Shown one piece after another: positions 11,758 through 28,671 of a DNA stretch of 64,000 nucleotides. The first letter of the stretch is position 1, and the number at the start of each line of letters is the position of its first letter. A program made the translations under genes and the position numbers. The notes below the pieces were generated by a model that saw only the letters and a list, made by a program, of their open reading frames with translations, did no database searches and was not told where the DNA came from. The stretch covers positions 1 to 64,000 of the forward strand of contig JAPPEF010000314.1 in NCBI GenBank assembly GCA_028875335.1. Direction: 5' to 3'. The DNA is from Gemmatimonadota bacterium. Lineage in GTDB: Bacteria > Latescibacterota > UBA2968 > UBA8231.

Positions 11758-13092
11758 ATGAACATAGCACTCGTCCACGTCCTGAACAAAAGCAAAAAGT
11801 ACGGCCTCAATAAGGACCTAAACGGCGGCCTCGGCACGGCCGACGACTTTGGCGATTCCCTGGCGTTTGGCATACTAAAGCGAATCCGCCGGAGGTGGGT
11901 CCGCATTCCCATCGTCGAGTTCGCGTTCTTGCAAAGCGTCCTCGCGGAACAGGGCCACGCGGTATCCTATTTTGAAGGCACCCTGCCGCAAGGCGACGTG
12001 GATTTGGTATTGTTGTACGGCTCGCTCGTCGATTACCAGCGCGAAAACCAAGTGTGCCAATCGCTCAAAGAGAAGCTGCCCAAAGCCAAAGTAGGTTTCT
12101 GGGGGCCTTTCCCTTCGCGATTTCCCCAGCTATTTGACAGCGGAGACTTCGTCCTCCAAGGCGAGCCAGAAGCCTTCTTCGCACACCAATTCGAGCACCT
12201 CGGCCAACTCAAAGGCCACGTGGCGGTCACCTCGCTTGCCGACATGGAGGCGCTGCCCGCACCTTCGTTTGACAACTTTCCCATCGATCAATACCGCTAT
12301 CTTCCCGCCATTGCCAAGCGGCCATTTGTCGCGCTGCAAGCGAGCCGCGGATGCCCCTTTAGCTGCCGCGCCTATTGCGCGTACGGCGAGTACCAAGGAG
12401 CAAAAATCCGCTTGCGGCCCGCGCGCAAAGTCGTCGATGACATCGTCCGGCTAAAGGAACAACACCGCATAAAGGCCATTCAGTTCAGGGACCCCCTCTT
12501 CGGCCTCCACAAGCCGTTTGTCCGCGAACTATGCGAAGAACTAAAACGGAGAAACGTCCAGATTGAATGGGGTATGGAAACCCGCCTCGACTTGCTCGAC
12601 GAAGACAACTTGCAACAGATGTTCGCCGTGGGGCTGCGCAACATCAACGTCGGCATCGAGACTCCCAACGCGGCCATCGCAAAAATCAACAAAAGGCCGC
12701 TGGTCGAAGAGCAGCACCAAGAGCACATGATTGCGTTCTGCAAAAAGCTAGGCATCAAGGTCGCCGCCTTCTACATTTTGGCCCTAGAGGGCGACACCGA
12801 AGAAACCATCCGCGAAGCCGTGCAATACGCCATCAAGCTCAACACCTATCTGGCCCGCTTTTCCGTTGCCACCCCGTACCCCGGAACGGCCTTTTACGAC
12901 CGGCTCGACCGCGCGGGCAGGATATCGACCTATGACTACGAAAAATACACGCAATTTCACCTCGTATTTGAGCACGAAAACTTGTCGGCACCCCAAGTCA
13001 GACGCCTGCTCGAAAAGGCTTATCTCCGCTACTATTGCCGTCCCGCTTACTGGGCCATGTTTGTCAAATGGAAGATGAAAAATTGGCGCTAG
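11758..13092 (+). CDS. B12-binding-type radical SAM protein with CX3CX3C cluster motif
   Basis: 444 residues. The first ~170 residues look like a variant B12-binding Rossmann domain (GHAVSYFEG, then VDLVLLYGS, then FVLQGEPE), and residues ~185-400 are a radical SAM TIM barrel. The cluster loop reads SRGCPFSCRAYCAYG: cysteines 199, 203 and 207, giving CX3CX3C rather than the canonical CX3CX2C. Downstream RDPLFG, METRLDLLDE, NVGIETPN and ATPYPGTAFY fit the family. It probably performs a radical methylation or rearrangement; substrate unknown. The downstream TPR lipoprotein gene overlaps its 3' end by 25 bases. Confidence 0.82.
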   Translation: MNIALVHVLNKSKKYGLNKDLNGGLGTADDFGDSLAFGILKRIRRRWVRIPIVEFAFLQSVLAEQGHAVSYFEGTLPQGDVDLVLLYGSLVDYQRENQVCQSLKEKLPKAKVGFWGPFPSRFPQLFDSGDFVLQGEPEAFFAHQFEHLGQLKGHVAVTSLADMEALPAPSFDNFPIDQYRYLPAIAKRPFVALQASRGCPFSCRAYCAYGEYQGAKIRLRPARKVVDDIVRLKEQHRIKAIQFRDPLFGLHKPFVRELCEELKRRNVQIEWGMETRLDLLDEDNLQQMFAVGLRNINVGIETPNAAIAKINKRPLVEEQHQEHMIAFCKKLGIKVAAFYILALEGDTEETIREAVQYAIKLNTYLARFSVATPYPGTAFYDRLDRAGRISTYDYEKYTQFHLVFEHENLSAPQVRRLLEKAYLRYYCRPAYWAMFVKWKMKNWR

Positions 13093-14429
13093 CGCGTCCT
13101 CAGTGGCTCGCCGCGCTCGCGCTATGGCTCGTGGCCGCGTGCGCCGACGGCCCCGGCCAAATCCACTACGCCGAGTGCCAACGCCAAGCCGACGCCAAAA
13201 ACTACCTGCCGGCCATCCAAGCCTGTCAGCAGGCTCTCGACAGCGAGCCAGAGCACGTGCAAGCGCGGATGCTGTTGGGGAGGCTGTTGCTCAAACACGG
13301 CCAGCTCGACGTGGCCATCCAGCACTTCGAGTACATCATCCAACGCGACCCACAGCACCTAGCAGCCTACGAGTCCCTCGGCGACTTGTACGTGCGGCAG
13401 CGGCGCAACGACCAAGCCATCACCGCATACCAAACGGCCCTTCAGCACGCGCCCGACCAGCCAGTCTTTTACCGCAAACTAGCCCTCGTCTATGGCGATC
13501 AAAACCGCTACGCCGATGCCGTTGAGGTACTGCATAAAGCCATAGAGTTGGAGCCACAACACGTGGCCACCCACTACAACTTGGGGCTAGTCTATCAGCG
13601 GCAAGCTCGCTACGCAGAGGCGCGGACGCAGCTACAGCAGGCCGTCCGGCTAGATTCCACGAGCGCGGACGCTCACTACCGGCTAGGGCAGATTGAGGCT
13701 CAGTTGGGTCAGTACTCGGCAGCCGAGGCCAGCCTGCGGGCGGCGTTGATGTACCAACCCAGTCACGCCTTGGCCCTTGCCGCGCTCGGGCATGTCCTGC
13801 TCCAACAAGGGCAGTCGCGCGAAGCCGAAACCGCGCTGGTGCAAGCCGTAGCAGCCGACCCGTTTGAACCCGAAGCCCTGCACCGGCTGGGAACGCTCTA
13901 TTTGCGGGAAGGGCGGCCCGAAGAAGGGCGCAAGCTGCTGGCGGCGTTTGCGCGCTTGCAGCCAGTGCGCGAGCAGATCGAGCACTACCGCTACCTGCTC
14001 ACGCTCTACCCAGAAGACGCAGACGCTTACTATAATTTGGGAGTGCTCTACGGGGGGTTGGGACACCGCGAAGCTGCGGCTGGCGAGTATCGCCGCGCCT
14101 TGGCCATCAATCCAGCCGATCTCGGGGCGCGCAACAACCTCGCCAACATCCTGCTGAACACCGGGCAGATCAACGCGGCCATCCAGCAATACGAACAGCT
14201 CTTGGCCCTATACCCGCGCTATGCCCAAGGCTACAACAATTTGGGCGCGGCCTATCTGCGACTCGGCAACGAGGAAGCGGCAATCCGCATGTTCCAAAAG
14301 GCCCTGTGGGCCGATCCAGAGTACGCGGATGCTCACTACAACTTGAGTATGCTGTACTTCAGGCAGGGACGACAAGCCGAAGGTCAGGCCGCCCTCGATA
14401 AGTATCGCTCCTTAACGGCAGGAAAATAA
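13068..14429 (+). CDS. TPR-repeat lipoprotein (copy 1 of 2)
   Basis: I place the start at the ATG at 13068, which gives a clean lipoprotein signal ending LVAAC (Cys25) and 453 residues; an earlier in-frame ATG at 13035 would add eleven residues of no signal character. The mature protein is built from about eleven to twelve tetratricopeptide repeats (for example AHYRLGQIEAQLGQY and YYNLGVLYGGLGHREAA). It should be a periplasm-facing protein-protein scaffold. The gene at 32556-33887 is a full-length paralog with the same repeat layout and shared phrases such as DPFEPEA and FARLQ. It overlaps the radical SAM gene, implying co-transcription. Partner unknown. Confidence 0.82.
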   Translation: MEDEKLALARPQWLAALALWLVAACADGPGQIHYAECQRQADAKNYLPAIQACQQALDSEPEHVQARMLLGRLLLKHGQLDVAIQHFEYIIQRDPQHLAAYESLGDLYVRQRRNDQAITAYQTALQHAPDQPVFYRKLALVYGDQNRYADAVEVLHKAIELEPQHVATHYNLGLVYQRQARYAEARTQLQQAVRLDSTSADAHYRLGQIEAQLGQYSAAEASLRAALMYQPSHALALAALGHVLLQQGQSREAETALVQAVAADPFEPEALHRLGTLYLREGRPEEGRKLLAAFARLQPVREQIEHYRYLLTLYPEDADAYYNLGVLYGGLGHREAAAGEYRRALAINPADLGARNNLANILLNTGQINAAIQQYEQLLALYPRYAQGYNNLGAAYLRLGNEEAAIRMFQKALWADPEYADAHYNLSMLYFRQGRQAEGQAALDKYRSLTAGK

Positions 14430-14430
14430 C

Positions 14431-15198
14431 TTACTGCTCGGCTGGGCGCGGCCTGCGGGCCTTATAGACCTCTCGATCGAACGAATAGGCGATGTTTACG
14501 GTTTCCATGGGTTCGTCCCGGAAGTCGAAGCGCAGGGCTAGGTCTTCGATCTCCACCACAAAGGAGGACACGTCTCTGTGCAAGGGCGGAAACACGATGA
14601 AGCCGGTGGATTCCTGGCCGCTGAAGACGAACTCGTCGGTCTTGTACATGGTCTCCTGCAGGATGTCCTTCCGCTCTTCGGTCTTCAAATACACGTTGCC
14701 GCCATAGCCGACGGCATAGGGCCAATAGTACTCGACCATGGCGGCCAAGCTCAGCGCCTGATATTGGCGGCCATTGGCGGCCGTCAGCGAGATTTTCTCT
14801 GGGTTCAACCACACCTTGGGGAATTCGTAGTTTTTCACCTTTAAGCTGAAGACCGTAAAGCGGGAGGGAGTCCACGACTGCTCCGGCGGATTCCAGTCCG
14901 AATACGTATAGGGGTTGAGTTCCATTTCGTATGGATTGAGATAAAAACTCGACTTATCCGGGCTGTGGGCAGCGAGCTGTCGGTTGAGGATTTCATCGGT
15001 CAGAGGGCGCAGATTGACCTCCAGCCGGCCCTCGGTATAGGTAATGCTGCGGTCGTCGCCAATCGACAACTCGGAGCTCTGCTGTTCGGTGGCTGGTTGG
15101 ATGGGGCCGGCAAAATGCCGCATCCCGAGCCGGTGGCCGCAACTAAGGAGGGGTAGCGCGATGGCCGTTAAGACGAGGATATAGCCCGTTCTTTTCAT
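14431..15198 (-). CDS. Hypothetical lipoprotein ending the surface cassette
   Basis: 255 residues with a lipoprotein signal ending LLSC (Cys20). The rest has beta-type alternation with no family I recognise; readable features are FTVFSLKVKNYEFPKVWLNP near 110, a short hydrophobic AMVEYYWPYAVGYGG near 153 and FVFSGQESTGFIVFPP near 190, the last resembling Ig-like repeats that limit surface exposure. An AGGAGC ribosome site precedes the ATG. It is the last gene of the six-gene minus-strand run that includes the PPIase, the outer-membrane-like protein and three discoidin/FlgD-like proteins. By context it is an envelope accessory of that set. Confidence 0.65.
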   Translation of the reverse strand: MKRTGYILVLTAIALPLLSCGHRLGMRHFAGPIQPATEQQSSELSIGDDRSITYTEGRLEVNLRPLTDEILNRQLAAHSPDKSSFYLNPYEMELNPYTYSDWNPPEQSWTPSRFTVFSLKVKNYEFPKVWLNPEKISLTAANGRQYQALSLAAMVEYYWPYAVGYGGNVYLKTEERKDILQETMYKTDEFVFSGQESTGFIVFPPLHRDVSSFVVEIEDLALRFDFRDEPMETVNIAYSFDREVYKARRPRPAEQ

Positions 15199-15211
15199 GA
15201 TACTGCTCCTA

Positions 15212-16879
15212 TTACAATTCCAGGTCCACTATATGCTCCTCAAACACCTCCACTCGCGCTGCGTATTGCTCTCGCAGCCTGACGATCAATTCCTCGAAGT
15301 ACTTGTTCTCCTCGGACTTCCGCAGCCAGTACTTGGCCCGCCGCACCGTCTGAGGAAAAGGCTCGGGCCGGTCGGGGATGCGCTCCTCGACCTTGAATAT
15401 GGAAAAGCCTTCCTCTAGCGCTAAGGGGCCTTTCAACTCGCCAACGGGAGCTTTTTCCATCGCCTCGTCGTGGAGCGGACCGAATAAGGCCCGCTCGTAC
15501 GCGTGCAGGTGAATCCGCCCCTGTTGCTGTTTGGCAAACTGTCGCGTGGTGTGGCGCACGGCGAGCGTTTCCATATCCGCTCCGCCCTCGATTTCCTTCA
15601 GCAGCGAATCGGCCACGGCCCGAGTGGGCACCAAAATCTCCAAAATCACGGTCGCGCGCGGCTCCATGAACTTGTGCAGGTTGTTCTCGTAATAGCGGCG
15701 CGCCGAGGCGTCGGTAGTATCGATCAGGGCCTGAACTGCGCGCTCTTTGAGCGCTTCGAGCAGCAGGGCCTCTCTCTTGTTGTGCAACCAAGCCACGACC
15801 GCCGGGTCCTCGTCCAAGCCCTCCTCAAGGGCTTCGAGGTAAAACAGCCGGAGCGACAGGATGTGCGTATCAATGAACTCGGCGATGCCCTCGCGACTGA
15901 ATTCGAGCCGGTACTGGAAGCGGGCCTGCCAGTGCGCATTCATCAAGTCCTCGATGGTGAAGTGCCCGCGGTCGTAGCGGCCCAGAATCCGCTCTCGGTC
16001 TGCCAGCGCAATTTCCCACAAGGCATTACTGCCCTTGGTCCCCTCGGCAATGAGGAATGCGACGGCGGTTGTGTCCACCTCGACCATGTACTTGGGCTTG
16101 AGTCCGGCCACCCGCTCCTGCTGGGCGCGATCGTAATTCTGCCGAAAGAGCCACTGGGCGAATACTTGCAGGTAGTAGTCGGGCGCAGGAGCTTCGTCCA
16201 GCACCTTGAAAATCTCGTACGCGCCCCGCAGTTGAAGGGGCTGGCTGACCTCGCCCTCTGGCACCTCGAACAAGACGTGGGCGATGGACAGCGGGAGTTG
16301 CAAGTCCCGCAAGTTCTCTCGGCCTATGAAGTGATCGCTCAGGAGGCCGCCGTTAGCTGCCGTGACCCGGTGTGCGGAGCGTTCCGCAGCCACTTCTGCG
16401 AACGGGCGTCCCCGTTCCAATTCCTCGACGACTTGTTGGGCTTGCTCTTCGGTTTCCACCCGAATGTGCGCCAGCTTGAGCAGGCGGCTCCACTTGCTCT
16501 TGGCGAATTGCTCCCGGACTTCCTGCTCCGAGGGCTGGCTCTCGGGCAGCACGTGTCGCTCTAGGTACTCTTTGACGATTCTATTCTGCTGCTCCTGCTC
16601 CCATTGCGCGGTGAATTGCGCCTCTTTGTCCAAGCCTTTGGCGCGGGCCTCCACGAGCATCAATTCCATGTCGATCAGGGTCTGGAGATAATCCTTGGCC
16701 GCGTCAATGCCAGCAGCTTCCGATCTCAGCAGGGCCGGGGTCTCTGCGGCGAAAAGGGTTAGGTCCTCGCGGGTAATTTCTTTGTCGCCGACTCGGGCGG
16801 CCACATTGTCGGCAACATCGCTAGGACTGCCGCACTGAATCAAGGCGAGCGCGGCGAGGATCGAGATACTTCTGAGCAT
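15212..16879 (-). CDS. Periplasmic peptidyl-prolyl isomerase, SurA/PrsA-like, lipoprotein
   Basis: 555 residues. A lipoprotein signal ends ALIQC (Cys16). A SurA-N-like helical region follows (GDKEITREDLTLFA). Two parvulin-like segments are visible: about residues 135-235 (LAHIRVETEEQAQQVVEEL, NGGLLSDHFI) and about 405-505 (ATVILEILVPTRAVADSLL, FSIFKVEER). Two parvulin units in one chain match SurA architecture, whose known role is chaperoning outer-membrane proteins. Its ATG overlaps the stop of the 891-residue outer-membrane-like gene (TAATG at 16879), so the two are translationally coupled. I infer a dedicated folding factor for that protein or for the discoidin proteins upstream. Confidence 0.8.
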   Translation of the reverse strand: MLRSISILAALALIQCGSPSDVADNVAARVGDKEITREDLTLFAAETPALLRSEAAGIDAAKDYLQTLIDMELMLVEARAKGLDKEAQFTAQWEQEQQNRIVKEYLERHVLPESQPSEQEVREQFAKSKWSRLLKLAHIRVETEEQAQQVVEELERGRPFAEVAAERSAHRVTAANGGLLSDHFIGRENLRDLQLPLSIAHVLFEVPEGEVSQPLQLRGAYEIFKVLDEAPAPDYYLQVFAQWLFRQNYDRAQQERVAGLKPKYMVEVDTTAVAFLIAEGTKGSNALWEIALADRERILGRYDRGHFTIEDLMNAHWQARFQYRLEFSREGIAEFIDTHILSLRLFYLEALEEGLDEDPAVVAWLHNKREALLLEALKERAVQALIDTTDASARRYYENNLHKFMEPRATVILEILVPTRAVADSLLKEIEGGADMETLAVRHTTRQFAKQQQGRIHLHAYERALFGPLHDEAMEKAPVGELKGPLALEEGFSIFKVEERIPDRPEPFPQTVRRAKYWLRKSEENKYFEELIVRLREQYAARVEVFEEHIVDLEL

Positions 16880-19551
16880 TAGAGGTCTCCGGTAGCGGCA
16901 AATAGGCGGATGAAGGCCACGGTCTCCGTTATGTTGAGGTCGCCTTTGTCAAAGTTTTTTTGTTCGCGTTGAAACCCGGCGTTCAGGGTGAGTTTGTAGC
17001 CTATGTACGCCGAGGTATTGGAAAATACGAAAGCAAAGACAAAGCTGTTGAAATCGTCCTCCTCGCCCGAGCGCAAGTTCTGCTGATCTTTCAGATTGTC
17101 GAAATTGCTGAACTCCAGCCCAATATCGACCCAAGTCTGCGGCAGAAAATTGTAGCGGGAGACCAAAAAAAGGATCTCCTCGCGGTCGCGGGAAATGCTC
17201 AGTTCCTTGGGCACAGCTCGGGTGGAGGGCAACTGACGCCGGTAGATGCTCTTGAACTTGGGCCACAGAGTCAGCGTGGCAAAGGGCTTGATTTCGTAAT
17301 CGGCCTTGTTGATCAAACCAAAAAAGGAGCGGTCGCGCTTGCGCTCGGCCTCCTCACCTTGCTGGAAGAACTTTTCAAACTTCAGCTTGGACGTCACGTG
17401 GAAGTTGGCCAGCGGTGCGTACTTGGCGTGGGTGTAGAAGCTGTTGATGAACGTGTCTTGAGCGTCGAGCGGGTCGTTGAAGGGTCGCTGGCCCTCGGGG
17501 TCCTCCCAGATAAGGCGATCTTCGCGGATGGCGTCTTGGGTGCGGCGGGCCAGTTCAAAAACGGCGATTTGCAGGTTGGGGAAATCCCACTCAGCGGTCA
17601 ACAGCCCATAGCTAGTGTGATTCCGATTGCCGCTGCTGATCTCGCGCTGCCGCAGTTGGCCCAAGACCAAGTTAATGTCCTCGCTGAGAGCCAAGCCGGC
17701 GTAGGCATTGTACCCGGTGCGGTCGCGCTCATACGGCAAGTCAGCCACTAAATCGTCCTCGTAGCGGTCGATGATGGTGTTGTTGTTCATGTCCATGCCG
17801 AAGAGAAACTCGGGCGCATCAACCGCATAGCGCAGGAAGGGTTCGGCGTAGTCGGGTTTGCTGTTCTGATTCTGGTTGAAGTCCGAGATGAAGTCGTTGT
17901 TCTCGTCGAGGCCGGGAAAGACCTGGCGATCTCCTCCAGAGCCTGTGCCCAATTCCTCGGTCAGCGTTACGGTGACGCCCTGGGACTGACGAATCCAATC
18001 CGGGTTTATGTCTTGGTCGTCGTTGTCATCGACGAACTCAAACAAATGCCGGCTGGCGTTGCCGTAGTCGATGTTGCCGCCAGCGTCGGACATGAAAGCC
18101 GTAGTGCTGTAGTCGGGATCTAGGTAGAACGACTCGCCGTACGCAAAAAACGGATACAGCGAATAGGACGAGGTCAGGTAAAAGGCTTGGGCCGTTTTCC
18201 GCGTGGGGGGCAGCTTGCGGAACCTGCCGTCTATTATGCGTTGGAAATTCTGGTTGGGGAACCGCTGAAAGCGCCGGTTGACCACGTACTCGCTTCTCAG
18301 ATCAAAGCCCTTGAGATTCTTGATGTTGAAATCGAGGCCAATTAGCTCCGTGGCCGTGGGCAGACCGTACTCGAAGCGGAGGAAGCGCTGGTTCGACCCG
18401 TCGGTGATGTTGTGCTCGGCCTGAAACACCGGCAGAAAGACCTCGTTGCCGAGCCGGTCGAGCTGTTTGTTGGAGCTGACTTCCACCCGGTAGTCGTTGG
18501 CCATAATCAGCTCGAATTCCATCTTCTGGACATCCTTGAAGCTGGGGGTCGTTTCGGTGGGCTGGAAGTCGTTGCGGATGTCGTAGGTCAGCAAGATGGC
18601 GTCTGTGCCCTTGGCCTTGAGCACCCCTTCTTCCCGAATGCCTCCTTCCACCAGCGGCACGATGCCCTCCTGCACTTGGCCGTCAATCAGGATTCGCTCC
18701 AAGAACAGAACCGCCCCTTCGTCCGGCGAATCGGGCGAATCGTCGGAGATGCGGATGATTACCTCTTCCACGTTGCCCAAGTTCTGCGGCCGCGTCAGCA
18801 CGCCTTGGAGCGAATTCTGGCCCAAGTTGAACTCGCTGTCCGCGTGATGGGCATTCACCCAAGTAAAGCCGACCTCGCCGAAGTCGCCCACCTGCGCCAG
18901 CCCCCGGCCGCCCAGCAGCCGCGTGGAGCTCACCGCGGTATTGCCGGTGGAACTCTGGGTTATCGCGCCAAAACCAGGCGAGCTGACCCGCGACGCGATC
19001 AAGGTCGCCGCGTACTTGTCGGACAGGAAGTCCCACTGCAAACCGTTAAAAGAGGGCTTGGAAAACGTGAGGGGAGTCAGCGTCGTGCGGATGGCGTCGC
19101 CCACCGTAAGCGTCGAGTGGAACTGGCCCTTGCTGGCCGAGGAGATGACCAAGCTGCTGAAAAAGCGGCCAAAGCGCGGGCTTTTGAAGATCTCGCTGCC
19201 AAAGGACTGGGGGTTGTTCTCGGTCCAATCGTAGATCCGCCACCCGCGGGCGATGTAGTTGCCCAAGGGGTCGTATTGGCGCGTGCCTTCTAGCAGAATG
19301 CTCACGTAGCGCTGGTAGTGTTCGCGGGCGTAGTTGCTGTACTCCCAGCCGCGCCAGCGGTACTCGTAGTAAAGCTGTTGTGGCAGATACCACTTCCTCA
19401 GCGTGGGAGCCAGCGCACCCGGGTGGATGCGAGTGCCATGTACCCCGGGTTCGGATATTTCCCTGAAGGCTTTGGGCGGCTGGGCCACCACAGCGGAAAC
19501 GCCTAAGATTGCGCTCAACAAGATGAGTACATCCCATCTCTTGTTGTACAT
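16879..19551 (-). CDS. Large outer-membrane-like beta-rich protein of the surface cassette
   Basis: 890 residues from the ATG at 19551, chosen because AGGAGG sits seven bases upstream and the signal peptide (core LILLSAILGV, likely cleavage at VVA/QPP) starts there. The body is rich in alternating aromatic/polar strands (for example FNSFVFAFVFSNTSAYIGYK near the end) and in long polar loops. Around residues 540-615 is a run of acidic calcium-type loops (DDNDDQDINPD, DENNDFISDFNQ, DMNNNTIIDRYEDD). I recognise no named family; it looks like a surface protein or barrel of the outer membrane. It sits between three exported discoidin-like proteins and a SurA-like isomerase. An export or anchoring partner is the natural guess. 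Confidence 0.65.
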   Translation of the reverse strand: MYNKRWDVLILLSAILGVSAVVAQPPKAFREISEPGVHGTRIHPGALAPTLRKWYLPQQLYYEYRWRGWEYSNYAREHYQRYVSILLEGTRQYDPLGNYIARGWRIYDWTENNPQSFGSEIFKSPRFGRFFSSLVISSASKGQFHSTLTVGDAIRTTLTPLTFSKPSFNGLQWDFLSDKYAATLIASRVSSPGFGAITQSSTGNTAVSSTRLLGGRGLAQVGDFGEVGFTWVNAHHADSEFNLGQNSLQGVLTRPQNLGNVEEVIIRISDDSPDSPDEGAVLFLERILIDGQVQEGIVPLVEGGIREEGVLKAKGTDAILLTYDIRNDFQPTETTPSFKDVQKMEFELIMANDYRVEVSSNKQLDRLGNEVFLPVFQAEHNITDGSNQRFLRFEYGLPTATELIGLDFNIKNLKGFDLRSEYVVNRRFQRFPNQNFQRIIDGRFRKLPPTRKTAQAFYLTSSYSLYPFFAYGESFYLDPDYSTTAFMSDAGGNIDYGNASRHLFEFVDDNDDQDINPDWIRQSQGVTVTLTEELGTGSGGDRQVFPGLDENNDFISDFNQNQNSKPDYAEPFLRYAVDAPEFLFGMDMNNNTIIDRYEDDLVADLPYERDRTGYNAYAGLALSEDINLVLGQLRQREISSGNRNHTSYGLLTAEWDFPNLQIAVFELARRTQDAIREDRLIWEDPEGQRPFNDPLDAQDTFINSFYTHAKYAPLANFHVTSKLKFEKFFQQGEEAERKRDRSFFGLINKADYEIKPFATLTLWPKFKSIYRRQLPSTRAVPKELSISRDREEILFLVSRYNFLPQTWVDIGLEFSNFDNLKDQQNLRSGEEDDFNSFVFAFVFSNTSAYIGYKLTLNAGFQREQKNFDKGDLNITETVAFIRLFAATGDL

Positions 19552-19573
19552 AGTGCCTCCTGAATTCTGGAAC

Positions 19574-21898
19574 TTAGTACGCGAGGCCAATGGTCCGGCT
19601 GATTTGTTGTTCCCCGAGTTGAGTCTTGAGGCGAATGTGGCACACGTAGAGGCCGGGTGGGCTCAGGCGATTCGCATCGTCGTGGCCCGACCAAGTGAAC
19701 AAATAGCCCGTTGCTCCGCGGCCCCCGTCGAGGCGGCGGACGCGCCGTCCATCCAGCGAGTAGATCCACACCTCCGGCTCGACCTCCACATTCAGGACCA
19801 AGAAGCGTATGTGGACTTGGTCGCCGACTCCGTCTCCGTTGGGGGTGGCGATACGAGGCGCAATCGAGAGGTTGGCAAGCAAGCGATCAGACTTGGGAAC
19901 ATCCGGGAAAAAAACTTGCGTCGCGCGCGGCACGCTACTGGTAGGCAGCACCTCCTGCCACAGATCGGGCACCTCGGTGCGGGCCACAAAGGCCCGGAAC
20001 AGCGTGGGGTTTTGCTCTATCTGGACGCGCAACTGCACCCGCACGGTATCCGCGTCTTGCTCCACGGCCTGCGGCAACTGAATCAACAGAGAATCGACCG
20101 TGGTCTGCTCCCACTCCACCGCGGGCAGCGCGACGCCGCCCACCCACACTTGGAGGCTGTGGGGATCGATTTGGGACGGGGTTTCAAATAGGAGTTGGTC
20201 GAAGCCGCCGCCCTCTGTAAAGTCGCCCCACAGCTTGTAGGTAAAGGTCTCGGGCACACCTGGGGCAGCCACTTGGGGCGCAATGCGGCCTTCAATGCCT
20301 CGTATTAAGGCGTTGATGAATCGCACTTCGAGGTTTCTCACGGTCGGAGCCGCTTCGGGGTGATCCGAAGTGAGCAGGAGTTGGAGTTGTAATAGCCGTC
20401 GCGGACTCGGCGAGAAAAAAAGGCCCTGTTCGAGGTACTCCGTGCTCCAAGCACTCCAGTCGGAGCCGGCGACGATGCTAGTATCGGTCTTGCCGCGCAG
20501 GAATTTGTTCGTGCTTTCGTAGGCCGCTTTGTCGGCCAGCAGGGTCCCGTCCTTTTTGTAGTAATCAATTTTCTCAGTCAACTGGTGGCCGGTGCGGCTC
20601 CGCACCAACACATGGGTGCCTTCGGGTTCATCGGCATCCCAGTGGATCCCCAAGATCTGCTTGGAGCGCCTGTCTCCGGCGAATTTCCCAAGGTCGATAA
20701 AACCGGATTCTAAGGCCACCCCGGCCACGTGTCCGGTGGGAAAGACCATGATCTCCGACATATCCCCGCTCCGGTTCTTGTAAACCCCTGCCAAATAGCG
20801 GAAGGCGCGTGGCGTGGGCAGAAAGTACTGGAGATCGTAGCGGCCACCGCCGAGAGGCGTGAGAAACTCGTGGACCACGGCAAAATCTATGTCGCCGACC
20901 TCCAGCTTGCTCTCTTCGGCCGAGCCTAGCAGCAGGTGATCCGCAACCATGTCGCCGATCGCGTAGCCGCGCTTTTCCGCCCCCAGCATGAGGATGTTCT
21001 TGACCCAATAGCGCGCGCCTAGGTCCAACACCCAGATTACGTCGCGGCCCCCGGTGACGGATTGCGACCAACTCGTGTTTTGATCGCCGTCTATCATCAC
21101 CGCGCCGCGGCCGGATTGTTCCTCCACTTGACCACCCCGCCGGATGGCCTGTAAGGCCACGTTCTCGCCGAGGGTGTAGGCTTCTACCTCGGCGAGGGCC
21201 GCGTCTTCGCTCTTGGAATCGGCCCGGATGCGGATGTACTGCACGGGCTGGAAGGGCGGGGGCGTTATATCCGTGGCGCTTTCCGCGCCCGTGTACAGGA
21301 TGCGCGTGGTCAATTCCCGCCAAGGGCTTAGTTCGTATTCCACGACCGTCTGGTCGTTGTAGCGGGTGGTCCCGCCCAACACGCTGTACGCAAACAGATC
21401 CTGGCCAATGGCTTCGCGATAGCCCCGCGTCCCAAAGACCCGGAAGTCGCGCAGGGGCCGTGCCCCTTCCTCGTCGGGGAAAATTAGCTGGATCTTGGTC
21501 AGCGGCACCACGCGCCCTAGATTGACCTCAATCCACCAGTCCTCGAGCGGGGCGTTCGGATCGGGTTTCCAGAAGGTTTGATAGTCGCCGTCAATGATGT
21601 TGCCGGCGGCGATCCCGGCCGCGCGGGCCGTAGAGCCCGCCCGCCGCACGCCGCCTTGGATCTCTGTGTTGCCCGCTCCTATATGCGTGTACTCGGGAGC
21701 GTCGAGTGCGGCATTGACCGTATCTGGGAACGCTACTAGCGTGAAGGCGCCGTCCGGGTCGAATTGGAGGAGACCTGGGGGAAAGGTCCATTCCTCCCAT
21801 TGGGCCTGGCGATCCAGGCGATAGGCTTGGTGCTGGCCCCAAGCGGCACTGCCCGCCAACAGGGCCAGCAACAGAGGAAACACTGCGATCCGGTTCAT
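19574..21898 (-). CDS. Secreted discoidin-like protein with FlgD-like C-terminal domain (tandem copy 3)
   Basis: 774 residues from the ATG at 21898; a TTG at 21913 in the same frame would overlap the upstream stop. A signal peptide ends near AAWGQ. Residues ~90-190 form an F5/8-type C (discoidin) jelly-roll with IIDGDYQTFWKPD and WWIEVNLGRVVPLTKIQLIF, and a second similar region lies near 265-385 (MIDGDQNTSWSQS, WVLDLGARYWVKNILML). The last ~90 residues carry IATPNGDGVGDQ and WSGHDDANRLSPPGLYVCHI, the FlgD-Ig-like/sorting-type C-terminus. It is the third of three tandem relatives in one operon. Likely extracellular, possibly glycan binding. Confidence 0.72.
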   Translation of the reverse strand: MNRIAVFPLLLALLAGSAAWGQHQAYRLDRQAQWEEWTFPPGLLQFDPDGAFTLVAFPDTVNAALDAPEYTHIGAGNTEIQGGVRRAGSTARAAGIAAGNIIDGDYQTFWKPDPNAPLEDWWIEVNLGRVVPLTKIQLIFPDEEGARPLRDFRVFGTRGYREAIGQDLFAYSVLGGTTRYNDQTVVEYELSPWRELTTRILYTGAESATDITPPPFQPVQYIRIRADSKSEDAALAEVEAYTLGENVALQAIRRGGQVEEQSGRGAVMIDGDQNTSWSQSVTGGRDVIWVLDLGARYWVKNILMLGAEKRGYAIGDMVADHLLLGSAEESKLEVGDIDFAVVHEFLTPLGGGRYDLQYFLPTPRAFRYLAGVYKNRSGDMSEIMVFPTGHVAGVALESGFIDLGKFAGDRRSKQILGIHWDADEPEGTHVLVRSRTGHQLTEKIDYYKKDGTLLADKAAYESTNKFLRGKTDTSIVAGSDWSAWSTEYLEQGLFFSPSPRRLLQLQLLLTSDHPEAAPTVRNLEVRFINALIRGIEGRIAPQVAAPGVPETFTYKLWGDFTEGGGFDQLLFETPSQIDPHSLQVWVGGVALPAVEWEQTTVDSLLIQLPQAVEQDADTVRVQLRVQIEQNPTLFRAFVARTEVPDLWQEVLPTSSVPRATQVFFPDVPKSDRLLANLSIAPRIATPNGDGVGDQVHIRFLVLNVEVEPEVWIYSLDGRRVRRLDGGRGATGYLFTWSGHDDANRLSPPGLYVCHIRLKTQLGEQQISRTIGLAY

Positions 21899-21909
21899 GC
21901 TCACTCGTC

Positions 21910-24012
21910 TCAATAGACCAAGGCCACGGACTGGGTGCGTTCAAAGCGGCCCCGGCCGGTCTGGGCCTGCACTTGGCACAAGTACAACCCCGGTCTAAAC
22001 AGCCGGCCGGCCGCATTGCGACCAGTCCACAATGCGGTGTGAACACCGCCGCCTTGGTGCTCGGCGAGAATGCGATCTACGGGTTCGCCCGCGAGCGTGA
22101 AAAACGTGATTTCCACGGCCGCGTCCAAAACCCCGAACAAGGTGTACTTAATTTTTAGCAGGTCGTTGTGCCCGTCTCCGTTGGGAGTGAACGTGCGGGG
22201 CGCGATTTCCAGCCCGCCGAGGACCTGCTCGACGGCGCGGCCCGCAGCGACCACTTGTAGCTGTTGGGTGCCGATCGCCGCGACTGCATCGCCTTCTTCA
22301 ACCTGCTGGCGCAAGACGCTATTGGCGCGGTTGAAAACCTCGCCGCGCAACTGGGCCGAGACCGTATAGAGCGCGGTCTTGAGGCCGATCCGCAAGGTCT
22401 CGTCGGCGCGAATCGGCTCGGGCAGATACAGGGTCAAGCCTGCGGCATCGGTCCGCGCGCTGTCGGGTTGGACGGCCTCATCGGCAGCATCCCTCAGATA
22501 CAAAAACTCTGGCTCGGCTGGCGTGGCGATGTGCAAGGCGTCGAAGCCGGCTGCCGCCCCGCCGCCAAAGCCAGCGCGGATGGCGTATGCGAACTCGGTT
22601 GGCTCGCCTATGGGCACTTGGGCCAGTATTGCAAGGGAATCGCCAAGCAGGCCGACCTCGCCGACTAGGGTGGGAACCAGCAGCGGGAATAGTTCAATGG
22701 ACAGCGAATCCACCCGCGCCATTTCTACCGAGCTGGCCGTCGTCATTTGCACCTCTAACTGGAAGAACCGGCGGCTGGGCAGGTCGAGGCGCGTGCCAGA
22801 TTGATTCACCGCGCCAGACCAAGGCGTCCACTCTTCTCGATCCTCGGTGACGGGCCCCCGCCAGCCCACGAAGCTCGGGTCGCTGTCGTTGGTCCGCAAC
22901 TTGAGTGCTTCCCATGCAGTCCGCTCGATCTCGGCCAATTCGCCTAGGTCGTTCCAAGTGAAGTACGTCAGGGGATCGGCGTCCGTGCCGTTTTTGAGGC
23001 GGAAGACGACGTCCACTTCGGCGTCCGGCGCTTCGACCAGTTCGCCGACCTGCCAGCGGCGCTCGCCATCTGCGGTTTCGCTCCACCCAGCGCCTTGTCG
23101 CCGCCACTTGCTGACCGCCATGAACACCCTTCCCAGCGTGGCCGGCTGACCCAAGTCTTGGACGTGGCTTACGTAGCGAGTCTGGCCGGCAAAGCCGCGG
23201 CCGTACAGCTCGAACTCGCCATACGCGAGGGCGAAGTTGATCTTCACCCCGGGAGCATCCGGGTTATCCGGGAAGGTTCGCCAACGCACGAAGCGCAGGT
23301 ATTGCAACGGAAAGTCGATGATGATGGGGGCGACTAAGTGCTGCTCCACGCTGCCCAAGCGGATCGGCAGAGGCTTATAATGCTCGCCGTACCGGTTCTG
23401 AGAGCGGCCTTCGAGCAACATATCCGTGGTCTCAATGAGGCTGCCCGTCAGCTCGCCTTGGTGGGGAATGTAGTGGGTCCAGGGCTTGCCAAACTGATCG
23501 CAGCAGTCTGGGTTGGCCGCGCCGGTCTTGGGATCGAATTCGGGCGGCAGGTGGATCTCAAAGCGCTCCACCGGCACGGGAGCACCTGGGTCAATCGTGT
23601 AAAATTCGCTATTGGTCTTGCTGCCGCCGGGGCCGAAGTTGGTGTTCCAATTGAAGGTCTGGGGATCGCCGTCAACGTACGTGGATATGGGCTGGAATTG
23701 CTGAGCGAACTGCTGGTTGCCAGGCCCCCGCCAGAGCCGAGGGATACCCTCCGTCCAGAACGGATCGAGGGGAAACTGCCAGCGATCCCAGCTAAAGCGC
23801 TGAGACACTAGGGGGAGGAAGTTGACATCGGGCCGCAACTCCCACGGCTGCAGCGCACCGGGCGCACTGGTCTCGTCGCCCATCACGTTGAGCGCAGCAG
23901 TTTCGGTCCAGGAACGGCCGCCTTGGCCCCCTAGTTTCCACAGATCCTGCGCCCACGCTGGCTGCGCCTGCCAAGCCCAGAGGGCGGCCCATAGTGCGAT
24001 CCACCGCAACAT
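21910..24012 (-). CDS. Secreted discoidin-like protein with FlgD-like C-terminal domain (tandem copy 2)
   Basis: 700 residues from the ATG at 24012, which overlaps the upstream stop by one base (TGATG) and begins a signal peptide ending QPAWAQ; a longer frame to 24132 is embedded in the upstream gene. A discoidin-like region is readable around residues 95-250 (YVDGDPQTFNWN, PVPVERFEIHLP, PLQYLRFVRWRTFP), then a second beta domain beginning YVSHVQDLGQP. The C-terminus has FTPNGDGHNDLLKIKYTL and WTGRNAAGRLFRPGLYLCQV, matching the FlgD-like domain of its neighbours. Pairwise the three proteins share layout more than sequence. Extracellular function inferred. Confidence 0.72.
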   Translation of the reverse strand: MLRWIALWAALWAWQAQPAWAQDLWKLGGQGGRSWTETAALNVMGDETSAPGALQPWELRPDVNFLPLVSQRFSWDRWQFPLDPFWTEGIPRLWRGPGNQQFAQQFQPISTYVDGDPQTFNWNTNFGPGGSKTNSEFYTIDPGAPVPVERFEIHLPPEFDPKTGAANPDCCDQFGKPWTHYIPHQGELTGSLIETTDMLLEGRSQNRYGEHYKPLPIRLGSVEQHLVAPIIIDFPLQYLRFVRWRTFPDNPDAPGVKINFALAYGEFELYGRGFAGQTRYVSHVQDLGQPATLGRVFMAVSKWRRQGAGWSETADGERRWQVGELVEAPDAEVDVVFRLKNGTDADPLTYFTWNDLGELAEIERTAWEALKLRTNDSDPSFVGWRGPVTEDREEWTPWSGAVNQSGTRLDLPSRRFFQLEVQMTTASSVEMARVDSLSIELFPLLVPTLVGEVGLLGDSLAILAQVPIGEPTEFAYAIRAGFGGGAAAGFDALHIATPAEPEFLYLRDAADEAVQPDSARTDAAGLTLYLPEPIRADETLRIGLKTALYTVSAQLRGEVFNRANSVLRQQVEEGDAVAAIGTQQLQVVAAGRAVEQVLGGLEIAPRTFTPNGDGHNDLLKIKYTLFGVLDAAVEITFFTLAGEPVDRILAEHQGGGVHTALWTGRNAAGRLFRPGLYLCQVQAQTGRGRFERTQSVALVY

Positions 24013-25976
24013 CAGTACACAACCCCTATGGTGCGGGTCTCGGCGAAGGACTCCACGGCTCCTTCGACTGCGACCCTGAGCAGATACAGTCCCACGGGCA
24101 CCAAGCGACCGTCCACGTTGCGGCCATCCCAAGTGGCAGTGTGCGGGCCTCGACCCCGATCCTCGCGGAAGGCGTACACGCGTCGGCCCGATAAGTCGAA
24201 GACCTCCAGCGTATTGGGAGCGTCGTTGAGAAGCTGGAGCAGGCTGTATTGAACGGTAATCCGGTCGTTCACTCCATCGCCATTGGGGGTTATCACCCGG
24301 GGACTGAAATCCGCGATGCGCAGCACGTCGTTCCGCGACTCGGGCGACGTGAGGACTTGCAGCTTGTTGGTCGTAACCTGCGAGTTGGGATCGTCTACGG
24401 GGCGCAAAGGGCGGGGCGGCGGCAAGACCGGCTGGGGCAATTCCTCGCTTTCAGTATCTAGGGCCTGGGCATTGAAAAACGTGGACTGCACGAGTAACTC
24501 GGCATCGAAAATAACCCGCAGCGAGGTCGGAGCGGCGATCCGGTTGTCCGGAAAATACAGCGTCAGGCCGTCGGACGCCTCTTCAACGGCACTAGGAGTG
24601 ACCAGACTCCGGCTGCTCTCGTCGGCACCCAGCAAAAGCTCGACAAAAGTCGGGCGCGTTGGCGTGATAATTTTCAGCGCGTCGATCCCCACATCCGCGT
24701 CGCGGACATCGGCCAACAGGTCGTACGCGAATCGGGAGGGCACGCCTACGGGCACCATGGCAAAACCGTCTTGGGGCGCGGGGTCGGCCAGCAGGGAAAT
24801 TTCGCCGAACAACCTCCGCGCCAAGGGGGGGGAGGCAATTTCCAAGGTCAGGTCGTCAACGCGGAGGCCGTCTGAGATCTGGCCGCTTTTCATGATGACG
24901 CGGAACTGGACGTAGCGCCGCGGGCTGGGCAACGCGACCGCCTGACCCGAAGCAGTGAACGGCTCCGACCAAGTGCTCCAATTTACCTGATCGGCCTCAA
25001 CGCCACCTTTGACATCAGCGGTCAGAGATTTATAGGCGTCTTCGGTGACTACGGTTAGCTCGTTGAGAAACTTGTTGGTAATCTCGTAATAGACCTCTGG
25101 CGAATCGTCGAGTCCCGAGCGCATCTGAAAACTGAGCGAGACATCTGCTTGAGGAGTCTCAACTAAGTCACCAGTGTCCGCATCAACCCGCAGCGCGACC
25201 GCGCTCCAGTTCAGGGTACCGAAATTGGTGGGTTCGCCGAGGTCGATGACCTTGGACAGGTACTCTCCCTTGGGCACGAAACCCGAGCCGTAGATTTCGA
25301 TCTCGGCGATCTCAAAGGGGTTTTTCGACAGCACCCGCAGCGCGACATAGCGGATGAACTGGTTGGGAAATTCAACCACGGCAATGCTGTCGCGGGAGAA
25401 TTCTACCCGCTTCATAAGCTGGTAGATGGGCTGGTTGTCCTCGCCGAATTCGAGGCCGTTATTGACGTATAGCTCATAGCCCCGAATGTAATCCTCCCAA
25501 TAGGGAATACCCTCGTCGTCAACGCCCGTCAGACGCGGAAAGAACGCAATGCGGTTGACCGGGAAGCGGCTTCCTAGATCGAGGGAAAAACGCCGACCCG
25601 TTTGGTTGGAGCCGAAGCGTTTGAAGCGGTCCGCGGTGGAGGTGTTGGGATCGCCATCTACGAGGGGAATGTCCGATTCCTTGAGCGGGTAGTTATTCCA
25701 GATGTGGGCTTGGGAGCGCTCGGGGATGTACCCTTCTATGGGGAAGGCCGAAACCCACGTGAGGGCTTGGATGATGTTATCTGTCGGCTTGAATCCGGCG
25801 ATCTGGATCGCGCCGGGTACGCTGAAATCAATGGCCGTAGTGGCCCGAGCCTCGGATTGCCAGCTCCGATCGTCCTCGTTGATCCCCCACGTCCGCAACT
25901 CGGCATCGGCGCTGCTCCAAAAGACCACGGCCAGCAGCGCGGCGCTGACTAGGGGTCGCCGTCTGGGTGCTCGCAA
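24012..25976 (-). CDS. Secreted discoidin-like protein with FlgD-like C-terminal domain (tandem copy 1)
   Basis: 654 residues with a signal peptide (cleavage likely after SSADA near residue 26). The N-terminal third has LVDGDPNTSTADRFKR and RFSLDLGSRFPVNRIAFFPR, typical of F5/8-type C galactose-binding jelly-rolls, followed by YLSKVIDLGEPTNFGTLNW, a motif shared with the next gene. The C-terminus has VITPNGDGVNDRITVQYSLL, LEVFDLSGRRV and WDGRNVDGRLVPVGLYLLRV, a textbook FlgD-Ig-like module used as a secretion or anchoring domain in other phyla. It is the first gene of the six-gene minus-strand cassette; its promoter should lie in the 81-base divergent gap before the HTTM gene. Confidence 0.75.
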   Translation of the reverse strand: MRAPRRRPLVSAALLAVVFWSSADAELRTWGINEDDRSWQSEARATTAIDFSVPGAIQIAGFKPTDNIIQALTWVSAFPIEGYIPERSQAHIWNNYPLKESDIPLVDGDPNTSTADRFKRFGSNQTGRRFSLDLGSRFPVNRIAFFPRLTGVDDEGIPYWEDYIRGYELYVNNGLEFGEDNQPIYQLMKRVEFSRDSIAVVEFPNQFIRYVALRVLSKNPFEIAEIEIYGSGFVPKGEYLSKVIDLGEPTNFGTLNWSAVALRVDADTGDLVETPQADVSLSFQMRSGLDDSPEVYYEITNKFLNELTVVTEDAYKSLTADVKGGVEADQVNWSTWSEPFTASGQAVALPSPRRYVQFRVIMKSGQISDGLRVDDLTLEIASPPLARRLFGEISLLADPAPQDGFAMVPVGVPSRFAYDLLADVRDADVGIDALKIITPTRPTFVELLLGADESSRSLVTPSAVEEASDGLTLYFPDNRIAAPTSLRVIFDAELLVQSTFFNAQALDTESEELPQPVLPPPRPLRPVDDPNSQVTTNKLQVLTSPESRNDVLRIADFSPRVITPNGDGVNDRITVQYSLLQLLNDAPNTLEVFDLSGRRVYAFREDRGRGPHTATWDGRNVDGRLVPVGLYLLRVAVEGAVESFAETRTIGVVY

Positions 25977-26057
25977 GGCGTGTGCTCCTCTGGGATTTGT
26001 ATTACTTCTTCAATTGACGGAATTTAATTCAACTTTTGCTAGGGAACAAATTTTTAA

Positions 26058-27566: not shown

Positions 27567-27575
27567 AGCAAAAAA

Positions 27576-27603
27576 AGGGGACGAAGCGTGCGCCCCGTCC
27601 CCT
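27576..27603. terminator. Hairpin between HTTM gene and CBM9-like copy 2
   Basis: AGGGGACG at 27576-27583 pairs with CGTCCCCT at 27596-27603. A poly-A tract on the left becomes a U tract when read on the minus strand, so it can end the minus-strand CBM9-like transcript; it lies in the 59-base convergent gap and could also affect the HTTM transcript. It uses the same GGGGACG/CGTCCCC core as the hairpins after the two paralogs. Confidence 0.7.
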
Positions 27604-27625
27604 GCAAAGCAACCTGCAGTAACGC

Positions 27626-28561
27626 TCAATCGAGCAGGCTATGCGTGCGGCTCTTGATCCGTCCCCAAGTGACGTTTTCCACCGCAGATTCCACCTCAGC
27701 AGGATCGTGCGTCAGAATGGTCTGGAAGTCGGCGGCTTGATCGCCGTCGGCCTGTCCGTCGAACGCACCGCCTACGTACCCGTACATGCCGGCACCACCG
27801 CCGCCTTCCGGGTTATCGACGTCGTTGAGGCGCGGCGTCGTGTGGGTGATCTGGTCGGGCGCGAAGGTGTAGCGCTGGTTCAAATCACCGTCCGGACCAG
27901 CCGGATCGTACGAGGCCCACAAGGCCAGCTTTATCTCATAGGTGTACTCGACGTTCGTCGACCCGTGAGTGGCGTCTGGTGGGGTCAGTTGCGTAGCAGC
28001 CAAGCCCCAAGGCGGCTGCCCTCCCCAGTCTCCCTCGGGGAAGTCGCCTCCGCCTAGAATACCGCCGTAGTCAATGCCAAATTCATTGCTGGCCAGCGAG
28101 TTGACTACGATGCGATAGCCGTTTTGCGCCTCCTCTATATTTTCGTTCACCAAGATCGACCCCCCAGAGTGGTCGGCATCGACCCCGATCATCATGGTGT
28201 CGTCGTCCCACCAGTTCCGCAGGTTGTCTCCCCAGCTACTCTTGAGGCTGTCGTCGGCCACCCGAGCAAAGAAGTAGAGGGCGTTGTCTGGGGGTAGGCT
28301 CCAAGCCATGAAATAGCTCGCTTGGTAGTCGTCGCCCTGGGCTCCCGGCCCCTGACCGACGAATTGCCCAGCCCAAGCCTCAATGCCGTCGGGCCCTACG
28401 GCAAAGTCTCGGTCGAACCAACCCCAGTCGTCTTCTGAGCCATCTATGTTCATAGACGAAGGATCGGGCACTGAAGGGAGGAAGAAAATTGCCCCGGTGT
28501 GAGCCGTAGCTGCGCTAGCGAGAGCCAGCGCTAAAAGCACTGCAAGGGCGGATGTTTTCAT
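27626..28561 (-). CDS. Secreted CBM9/DOMON-like protein with predicted N-terminal histidine (copy 2 of 3)
   Basis: 311 residues from the ATG at 28561, supported by AAAGGAG upstream and by a signal peptide that starts there and ends ATA, giving a mature N-terminus HTGAIFF. The family core is kept: NIDGSEDDWGWFDRDF, ALYFFARVADD, NWWDDDTM, DADHSGG, NGYRI, VEYTYEIK, FAPDQ and VTWGRIK. This copy has a Gly-rich insertion (DNPEGGGGAGMYGYVGG) not found in the others and lacks the VEH histidine (VEN instead), which narrows the fully shared histidines to the mature first residue and DADH. It is monocistronic between its own promoter and terminator. Ligand unknown. Confidence 0.75.
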   Translation of the reverse strand: MKTSALAVLLALALASAATAHTGAIFFLPSVPDPSSMNIDGSEDDWGWFDRDFAVGPDGIEAWAGQFVGQGPGAQGDDYQASYFMAWSLPPDNALYFFARVADDSLKSSWGDNLRNWWDDDTMMIGVDADHSGGSILVNENIEEAQNGYRIVVNSLASNEFGIDYGGILGGGDFPEGDWGGQPPWGLAATQLTPPDATHGSTNVEYTYEIKLALWASYDPAGPDGDLNQRYTFAPDQITHTTPRLNDVDNPEGGGGAGMYGYVGGAFDGQADGDQAADFQTILTHDPAEVESAVENVTWGRIKSRTHSLLD

Positions 28562-28616
28562 CCTGCACTCCTTTCTGAAAACAATGGCTTGCTGCTTGCG
28601 CGAGATACTCCGTAAA

Positions 28617-28645
28617 TATCTACGTGTGGTGCAACGAGTTGTCAA
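28617..28645 (-). promoter_or_regulatory. Putative sigma70-type promoter for CBM9-like copy 2
   Basis: Read on the minus strand, TTGACA (28645-28640) is followed after exactly 17 bases by TAGATA (28622-28617). It lies about 55 bases upstream of the ATG at 28561 and overlaps the divergent gap before the DUF6785 gene. The match to a housekeeping promoter is good. Confidence 0.6.
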
Positions 28646-28671
28646 GAAAAATGTAACGCGAGGAATCCCGA

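Follow-up and report, generated by a model that had tools for sequence, protein, structure and literature searches.

A six-gene cassette around an unnamed, predicted outer-membrane barrel family, present in dozens of copies in Latescibacterota genomes

The window analyzed here, i.e., a stretch of 64,000 nucleotides (positions 1 to 64,000 of contig JAPPEF010000314.1, assembly GCA_028875335.1) from a Gemmatimonadota bacterium placed by GTDB within the Latescibacterota (UBA2968; UBA8231), a placement that its relatives support, harbors a cassette of six minus-strand open reading frames (ORFs), here designated D1, D2, D3, B, P and L, which together fill positions 14431-25976. With the start codons that we selected as the most plausible (TTG at 25976 and ATG at 24012, 21898, 19551, 16879 and 15198), the intergenic spacings from D1 to L are -1, 11, 22, -1 and 13 bases, which reproduces the values given in an original prediction made from the DNA letters alone. 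The features of the cassette are as follows:

24012..25976, minus strand: D1, a 654-residue paralogue with a signal peptide recognized by eye and a tail matching CHU_C and FlgD_ig
24066..24302, minus strand: C-terminal domain of D1 (residues 559-637), its best CHU_C stretch
21910..24012, minus strand: D2, the second paralogue, with its start re-set to ATG 24012 and a 1-base overlap with the D1 stop
19574..21898, minus strand: D3, the third paralogue, with a discoidin domain and the same type of tail, its start re-set to ATG 21898
21437..21625, minus strand: best discoidin stretch of D3 (PF00754; residues 97-159 of a 779-residue frame)
16879..19551, minus strand: B, 890 residues, a predicted outer-membrane beta-barrel without a named family
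17740..18039, minus strand: very conserved Asp/Asn-rich loop of B
15212..16879, minus strand: P, 555 residues, with two parvulin-type peptidyl-prolyl isomerase (PPIase) stretches, a possible lipoprotein
14431..15198, minus strand: L, a 255-residue immunoglobulin (Ig)-fold lipoprotein (lipobox by eye, Ig-like model)

A search of the window ORFs revealed no second copy of the cassette, and positions 13000-29000 contain no Rfam match at gathering threshold. A scan of the locus found one promoter-like site (2.6 expected) and 11 terminator-like sites (11.9 expected), counts which are uninformative with regard to a single transcript.

The cassette is one copy of a multi-copy unit, present dozens of times per genome and organized around an unnamed barrel family. 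A protein search with B returned 519 homologues at E<=0.001, and among the 120 of these 519 matches that were listed the few with an organism name are assigned to Latescibacteria and Handelsmanbacteria. Of 484 stretches from the genome collection, 403 were found to encode a B relative, and the 80 best were retained for analysis; these 80 include orthologous cassettes of related genomes and hence do not represent 80 independent events. Seventy-eight of the 80 contain D-type genes, 46 contain P-type genes and 51 contain L-type genes, the latter two counts being lower bounds because many contigs end early. Thirty-two loci extend 7.5 kb or more in both directions from B; in this subset, at least two D genes are found in all 32 cases and at least three in 26, a P gene in 27, an L gene in 25 and both P and L in 24; nineteen loci combine at least three D genes with P and L, while five are without the parvulin and seven without the lipoprotein. 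A same-strand D gene is located directly upstream of B in 66 of the 80 loci, as in the gene order of PorP/SprF-type pairs, and the order L-D1-D2-D3-B with P nearby recurs with variations, the lipoprotein gene often being first and the PPIase gene last, elsewhere or on the opposite strand. The expectation that the six genes would co-occur among relatives in the same order was thus borne out for the companionship of D and B, but not for a fixed order or for the constant presence of P and L.

Two single-contig chromosomes, G001 and G002, returned 53 and 59 B matches, respectively, some of which are pieces of one gene. The loci examined in G001 contain 41 B ORFs with a length of 700 residues or more, 38 of which have a same-strand D gene within three genes (the nearest being one, two or three genes away in 25, 8 and 5 cases); a same-strand D gene is directly upstream of 23 of the 41, and B lies upstream in another 10. 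Thirty G001 cassette windows, chosen because they hold or adjoin B, contain 70 D genes, 20 parvulins and six lipoproteins, while 14 control regions of the same genome (280 kb), which contain no B, yielded no family parvulin, six weak D matches (39-73 bits) and one lipoprotein match.

Among the 64 genomes of the phylum, the 39 in which B was detected (E<=1e-3) are also those in which D3 was detected (E<=1e-20), based on about 14 to 16 candidates scored per genome, which suffices for presence but not for copy number. Furthermore, Mantel tests on typed pairs within one genome, with one D or P gene per B and with omission of B genes lacking a partner of the type in question, gave r values of 0.83 for B-D3 (n=23), 0.80 for B-D1 (n=28) and 0.64 for B-P (n=20), none of which was reached in 2000 permutations (0/2000 each). 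These correlations indicate that the cassettes diverged as sets. It is conceivable that B and D do so without any physical contact, i.e., that a lineage-specific family of surface or S-layer proteins expanded through co-duplication of operons in which B is an ordinary porin: block duplication alone predicts co-divergence, and some D genes lie apart from B. The matching distributions of B and D across the 64 genomes and the D-then-B order in 66 of 80 loci nevertheless exceed what co-duplication needs, and we regard this explanation as quite unlikely.

Several further loci involve members of the B and D families. Loci L147-L158, from a single-contig Latescibacterota chromosome, carry D3-type genes with no B in the regions examined, and three of them (L152, L156 and L157) also hold a gene of the mandelate-racemase/enolase family. 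In loci L138 and L139, divergent B-like genes (309-361 bits) form tandem triplets next to one or two D-type genes, and these B-like genes perhaps represent an older branch of the B family. A B gene with one internal TAA and a profile span of 47-877 is found in three genomes (G001:C1:732824-735328, G002:C1:4469322-4471826 and G046:C349:7499-10003), where it could be either a conserved feature or a decayed gene. Transfer of the cassette to Aminicenantes, Desulfobacterales and Thermoplasmata was considered and rejected, since the respective contigs measure 3-13 kb and the genomes contain 2, 1 and 1 matches, for which reason these loci are read as mis-binned.

B is predicted to form an outer-membrane beta-barrel. 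Alignments were assembled from 25 (A1) and 67 (A2) of the 120 listed B homologues, and an AlphaFold2 model (67 sequences) of P0001, a protein 99% identical to the window B, exhibits a mean predicted local distance difference test score (pLDDT) of 76.4, a predicted TM-score (pTM) of 0.74 and, by our count of the DSSP listing, about 22 long strands. The modeled barrel is interrupted by a series of shorter strands at about residues 240-395 and by the poorly predicted Asp/Asn-rich loop (about residues 505-606). Forty-one of the 133 invariant columns of A1 fall within P0001 residues 505-606, and a D[ND]D[DEN]xD motif is present in 41/41 B genes of one genome; ion binding by this loop is only a guess. 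Structure prediction, proposed previously as a check on this large, beta-rich protein, therefore delivered a barrel and lends no support to a soluble surface protein.

The B family is without a name: none of 25 members has any Pfam match, the window protein has no NCBIfam match, and a PDB sequence search returned just two antibody chains at E 0.6, which were discarded as chance matches. A candidate identity as the SprA/Sov translocon was likewise rejected, as hhalign of A2 against a single SprA sequence from G001 gave a probability of 0.1. The top Foldseek and VIA rows belong to what we take to be barrel proteins. The 50 VIA rows shown are unrelated barrels of similar Z (11-14; root-mean-square deviation (rmsd) 5-12), so that no fold family can be assigned to B and none is excluded. 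SlpA/S-layer-complex proteins (8ae1, 7zgx, 8agd) account for three of the top four Foldseek rows, which would suit the above-mentioned expansion of a surface-layer family. The SlpA/S-layer deinoxanthin-binding complex barrels resemble B in being large, but their query-normalised TM-scores of 0.27-0.30 and rmsd of about 17 A indicate that B and SlpA share the barrel class only.

As the principal alternative to the reading preferred below, the barrel could serve nutrient uptake in the manner of SusCD, with B as a substrate-specific channel, the D proteins as glycan-binding lids or surface binders, and the many copies matching many substrates; the D proteins might even then be exported by a type IX secretion system (T9SS). 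The strand number of the SusC barrel is similar to the approximately 22 strands of B, the SusCD complex 5fq6 is among the Foldseek rows (E 1.8e-4), and SusC/SusD pairs share with the cassette both a large expansion of paralogues, seen here as dozens of copies per genome, and a partner encoded in an adjacent position. The cassette differs from SusC/SusD, however, in that the 25 scanned B members match neither the TonB plug nor the carboxypeptidase-like domain of SusC (nor anything else in Pfam), plug-bearing receptors being encoded separately from B in these genomes (20 matches in G001, 28 in G002). Moreover, a crude lipobox pattern is rare among D proteins (3/74, 8/41 and 1/59), no SusD family is listed in the Pfam scans of the D families, and the genes around the cassettes form no clear enzyme neighborhood. 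These arguments are not decisive, though they leave uptake an unlikely function.

D1, D2 and D3 are, as judged by profile comparison, true paralogues over most of their length, in agreement with the relatedness proposed in the original prediction: the alignment of D1 with D2 spans 621 columns (hhalign E 1e-142) and that of D1 with D3 spans 498 columns (E 5e-74). Family alignments comprised the window D1 with 29 of 73 D1-type ORFs (A3), the window D2 with 27 of 40 D2-type ORFs (A4) and the window D3 with 29 of 58 D3-type ORFs (A5). Discoidin-type regions had been proposed for all three proteins; D3 does exceed the cut-off of the discoidin (F5/8 type C) model PF00754 (42.4 bits versus 28.2), but no match is listed at E<=1 for the window D1 or D2, and at E<=0.1 the domain is found in 30/30 D3, 13/30 D1 and 3/28 D2 family members scanned.

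The FlgD-like tail proposed for these proteins was recovered, in that FlgD_ig matches D1, D2 and D3 with 23.6, 20.1 and 14.1 bits, respectively, each below the cut-off of 27. The same region is matched by CHU_C (PF13585), which Pfam describes as a type IX secretion signal domain, with 36.1, 17.6 and 17.4 bits, its cut-off of 27 being passed by D1 only. Among the family members scanned, CHU_C is found at E<=0.1 in 30/30 D1, 26/28 D2 and 30/30 D3, and FlgD_ig in 30/30 D1, 28/28 D2 and 26/30 D3. FlgD was not rejected as the name of the tail, because the two models match this region about equally. The fact that the tail also matches a T9SS domain suggests an export route, while the tail does not firmly qualify as a T9SS signal.

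T9SS genes were sought in the genomes of relatives, to which, rather than to the window's own genome, the following results apply. G001 encodes SprA (617 bits, cut-off 200), PorU (629 bits, cut-off 420) and, adjoining PorU, a PorV/PorQ-family protein (238 bits, cut-off 90), whose PorV equivalog score of 158 is below the cut-off of 250. The loci concerned are:

L159:6017-12337 and L160:6597-11445: SprA, PorU and PorV-family genes, i.e., outside Bacteroidota, on the single-contig Latescibacterota chromosome that also carries L147-L158

Both single-contig chromosomes contain a Peptidase_C25 match, CHU_C matches number 122 in G001 and 148 in G002, and SprA_N was identified in 60 of the 64 phylum genomes. 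The T9SS is called exclusive or restricted to Bacteroidota in passages of PMC12618676 and PMC4793230, and a wider range, the Fibrobacteres-Bacteroidetes-Chlorobi superphylum, is given in a passage of PMC11205867. For Latescibacteria, passages of PMC4454575 mention porins and TonB import, 'secretion' in these passages referring to type VI. A search that left most subscription journals outside its reach found no paper that mentions Latescibacteria or Latescibacterota together with type IX secretion.

These data bear on a further explanation, namely that B is carrier and conduit in one and moves the D proteins itself, as in two-partner or usher systems, with the T9SS serving other cargo and the tail being an ordinary FlgD-type Ig domain. 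The usher FimD and the FhaC/TamA barrels do appear among the structural matches of B, a parvulin is present in many cassettes, and across the families the tails are matched by FlgD_ig and CHU_C to a similar degree. On the other hand, no family stands out among the similar VIA rows, Pfam matched no POTRA or plug domain in B, and genomes with B nearly always possess SprA (36/39), rendering this explanation decidedly improbable in our estimation.

P contains a PPIC-type rotamase domain and scores over the cut-offs of PF13145 (73.0 bits) and PF00639 (65.0 bits), with a further 45.3 bits for PF13616. It had been described as a SurA-like, two-domain parvulin of the class that folds outer-membrane proteins, of which the two parvulin stretches stand and an identity as SurA does not: SurA was rejected on the basis of PF13624 SurA_N_3 (17.6 versus 27.2) and the SurA equivalog (21.9 versus 394). 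P shares its two stretches with known parvulin foldases (EpsD, PrsA, SurA, PpiD and PpiC), and differs from them in being encoded within many cassettes and in that none of the nine NCBIfam models listed for it reaches its curated cut-off. A lipobox-like match is present in just 15/45 P family members. L, for which an alignment (A6) was built from the window protein and 69 of 120 listed homologues, is a lipoprotein as previously proposed, judging from a lipobox identified by eye; its model is Ig-like, and Foldseek returned no match at E<=0.001.

Taken together, the observed gene content, multiplicity, co-occurrence and co-divergence, the T9SS genes of relatives and the barrel predicted for B form the basis of the reading that we prefer, in which the D proteins would leave the cell through the T9SS and would then be received or held by a B barrel of their own, assisted by the parvulin and the Ig-fold lipoprotein. 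We hold this reading tentatively, at not quite an even chance. D1-D3 would enter the periplasm by means of their signal peptides, their C-terminal domain would be recognized, and they would cross the outer membrane through the translocon SprA. B, encoded directly downstream, would receive and/or anchor its own set of D proteins at the surface, a role equivalent to that of the SprF/PorP-type carriers towards the type B T9SS substrates of Bacteroidota. The presence of a parvulin in many cassettes suggests that it may aid the periplasmic folding of B or D, and the Ig-fold lipoprotein may be an accessory of the complex. We infer export of D, its docking on B, the client of the parvulin and the role of the lipoprotein. 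The view that one unit encodes substrates, a barrel acting as conduit or anchor, and a folding factor is accordingly upheld for the co-occurrence of the genes and the predicted barrel, with D as a substrate on B belonging to the inferred part.

Type B T9SS substrates are described, in passages of PMC12635249 and PMC9143113, as each having an outer-membrane carrier of their own and remaining attached to it, and a passage of PMC12618676 places the carrier gene commonly directly downstream of the substrate gene. It is because the D-then-B order matches this arrangement that B most likely would receive or anchor its own D proteins. In the SprB-SprF and PG1035-PorP pairs, as in the cassette, a surface protein with a C-terminal domain is encoded directly upstream of an outer-membrane barrel (passages of PMC9143113, PMC12618676 and PMC12635249), several pairs exist per genome, and the T9SS translocon is encoded elsewhere in the genome. 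One such complex contains the outer-membrane lipoprotein PorE, comparable to L. The cassette differs from PorP/SprF pairs in that B is accompanied by as many as three D paralogues and, in many cases, by a parvulin, and that B is present in dozens of copies, whereas a passage of PMC9143113 reports 10 PorP-like proteins for F. johnsoniae.

A number of observations weigh against this reading. B lies outside the PorP/SprF/PorV family, showing no PF11751 or TIGR03519 match (Pfam for 25 members, NCBIfam for the window protein), and its model has about 22 strands instead of the 14 of the FadL-type carrier barrel. The CHU_C scores of D2 and D3 are under the cut-off, FlgD_ig outscores CHU_C in D2 and is about as common as CHU_C across the D families, and the NCBIfam type A and type B models (TIGR04183, TIGR04131) remain below cut-off for the window D proteins; because FlgD_ig fits the tail about as well as CHU_C, the carrier reading was given less weight. 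SprA is present in 24/25 genomes without B and in 36/39 with it, and T9SS presence therefore does not single out B. Searches for PorP_SprF in G001/G002 (0/2) and for GldM (0/6) were negative, although the positive controls were also silent, so that absence is not shown. With regard to phyletic distribution, two of eight tested B-less genomes (G018 and G020) give one weak D3 match each at E<=1e-10 (1.8e-11 and 6.1e-11), and G008-G011, though counted as positive, have no more than distant B relatives along with one to three matches to D3. The 25 B-less genomes are G016 (0.8 Mb) and those listed consecutively as G018-G041, and, as they mostly form one block, the phyletic match may reflect a single loss or gain. 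In G001, three of the 41 B genes lack a D neighbor on their own strand at a distance of up to three genes, and some D3 genes lie in examined regions devoid of B. Typed Mantel tests on the last 110 D residues gave r values of just 0.46 and 0.54, while an untyped test with the nearest D gave 0.20 (last 110 residues -0.10); the latter mixed D types, and the test was consequently redone by type. Whole-cassette duplication would, as mentioned, also yield the co-divergence.

A broader form of the carrier reading, possible but rather unlikely, is that the cassettes represent a larger, second class of dedicated T9SS carrier, in which a barrel with about 22 strands and no sequence relationship to PorV/PorP/SprF would collect several paralogous cargoes as a surface complex, with dozens of parallel cassettes per cell, many of them including a parvulin. 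If this were true, no other cargo-carrier system that we know of would be multiplied to the same extent.

The genes surrounding the cassette include the following recurrent neighbors, for which blastp matches were sought in 130 loci:

13035..14429, plus strand: TPR protein, the convergent neighbor, with matches in 53/130 loci, mostly in cluster c4
27626..28645, minus strand: protein of the recurrent neighbor family c3, with matches in 46/130 loci
28672..30618, plus strand: DUF6785/DUF6784 protein, recurrent neighbor c7, with matches in 29/130 loci

Families that recur around cassettes are TPR, FG-GAP/ASPIC, DUF6785 and one with a CBM9-like representative (c3), whose CBM9-like match is below cut-off, the window protein at 27626-28645 having no Pfam match. 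Since the TPR, CBM9-like and DUF6785 families recur in relatives, the unit may exceed six genes. Together with the discoidin domains, the CBM9-like match hints at sugar binding, which favors the SusCD-like alternative, as does the ABC (ATP-binding cassette) importer permease PF00528, present in 6/88 sampled neighbor proteins versus at most 1/88 controls. This ABC signal, however, comes from few loci, and no glycoside hydrolase is present in the 25 of 102 neighbor families shown. The enrichment analysis, which compared 88 of 107 eligible neighbors with 88 of 161 controls (25 of the 102 neighbor families and 25 of the 125 control families being listed), is not decisive. Elsewhere in the window, positions 5702-8395 encode an 897-residue FG-GAP, ASPIC/UnbV and TPR protein related to two of the recurrent neighbor families, and positions 26058-27566 an HTTM-domain protein, transcribed away from D1, without a blastp match (E<=1e-8) in the 130 loci.

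A family of large barrels without any match in Pfam, with dozens of members in a genome, constitutes a sizeable unannotated part of the surface of these bacteria, in whose phylum SprA, PorU and PorV-family genes are placed outside Bacteroidota. According to a passage of PMC12618676, five conserved motifs are insufficient to explain the recognition code between cargo and carrier. If B were indeed a cargo carrier, cognate pairing of T9SS cargo and carrier would not be tied to the FadL-type fold, and each genome would offer dozens of natural pairs from which this recognition code might be learned.

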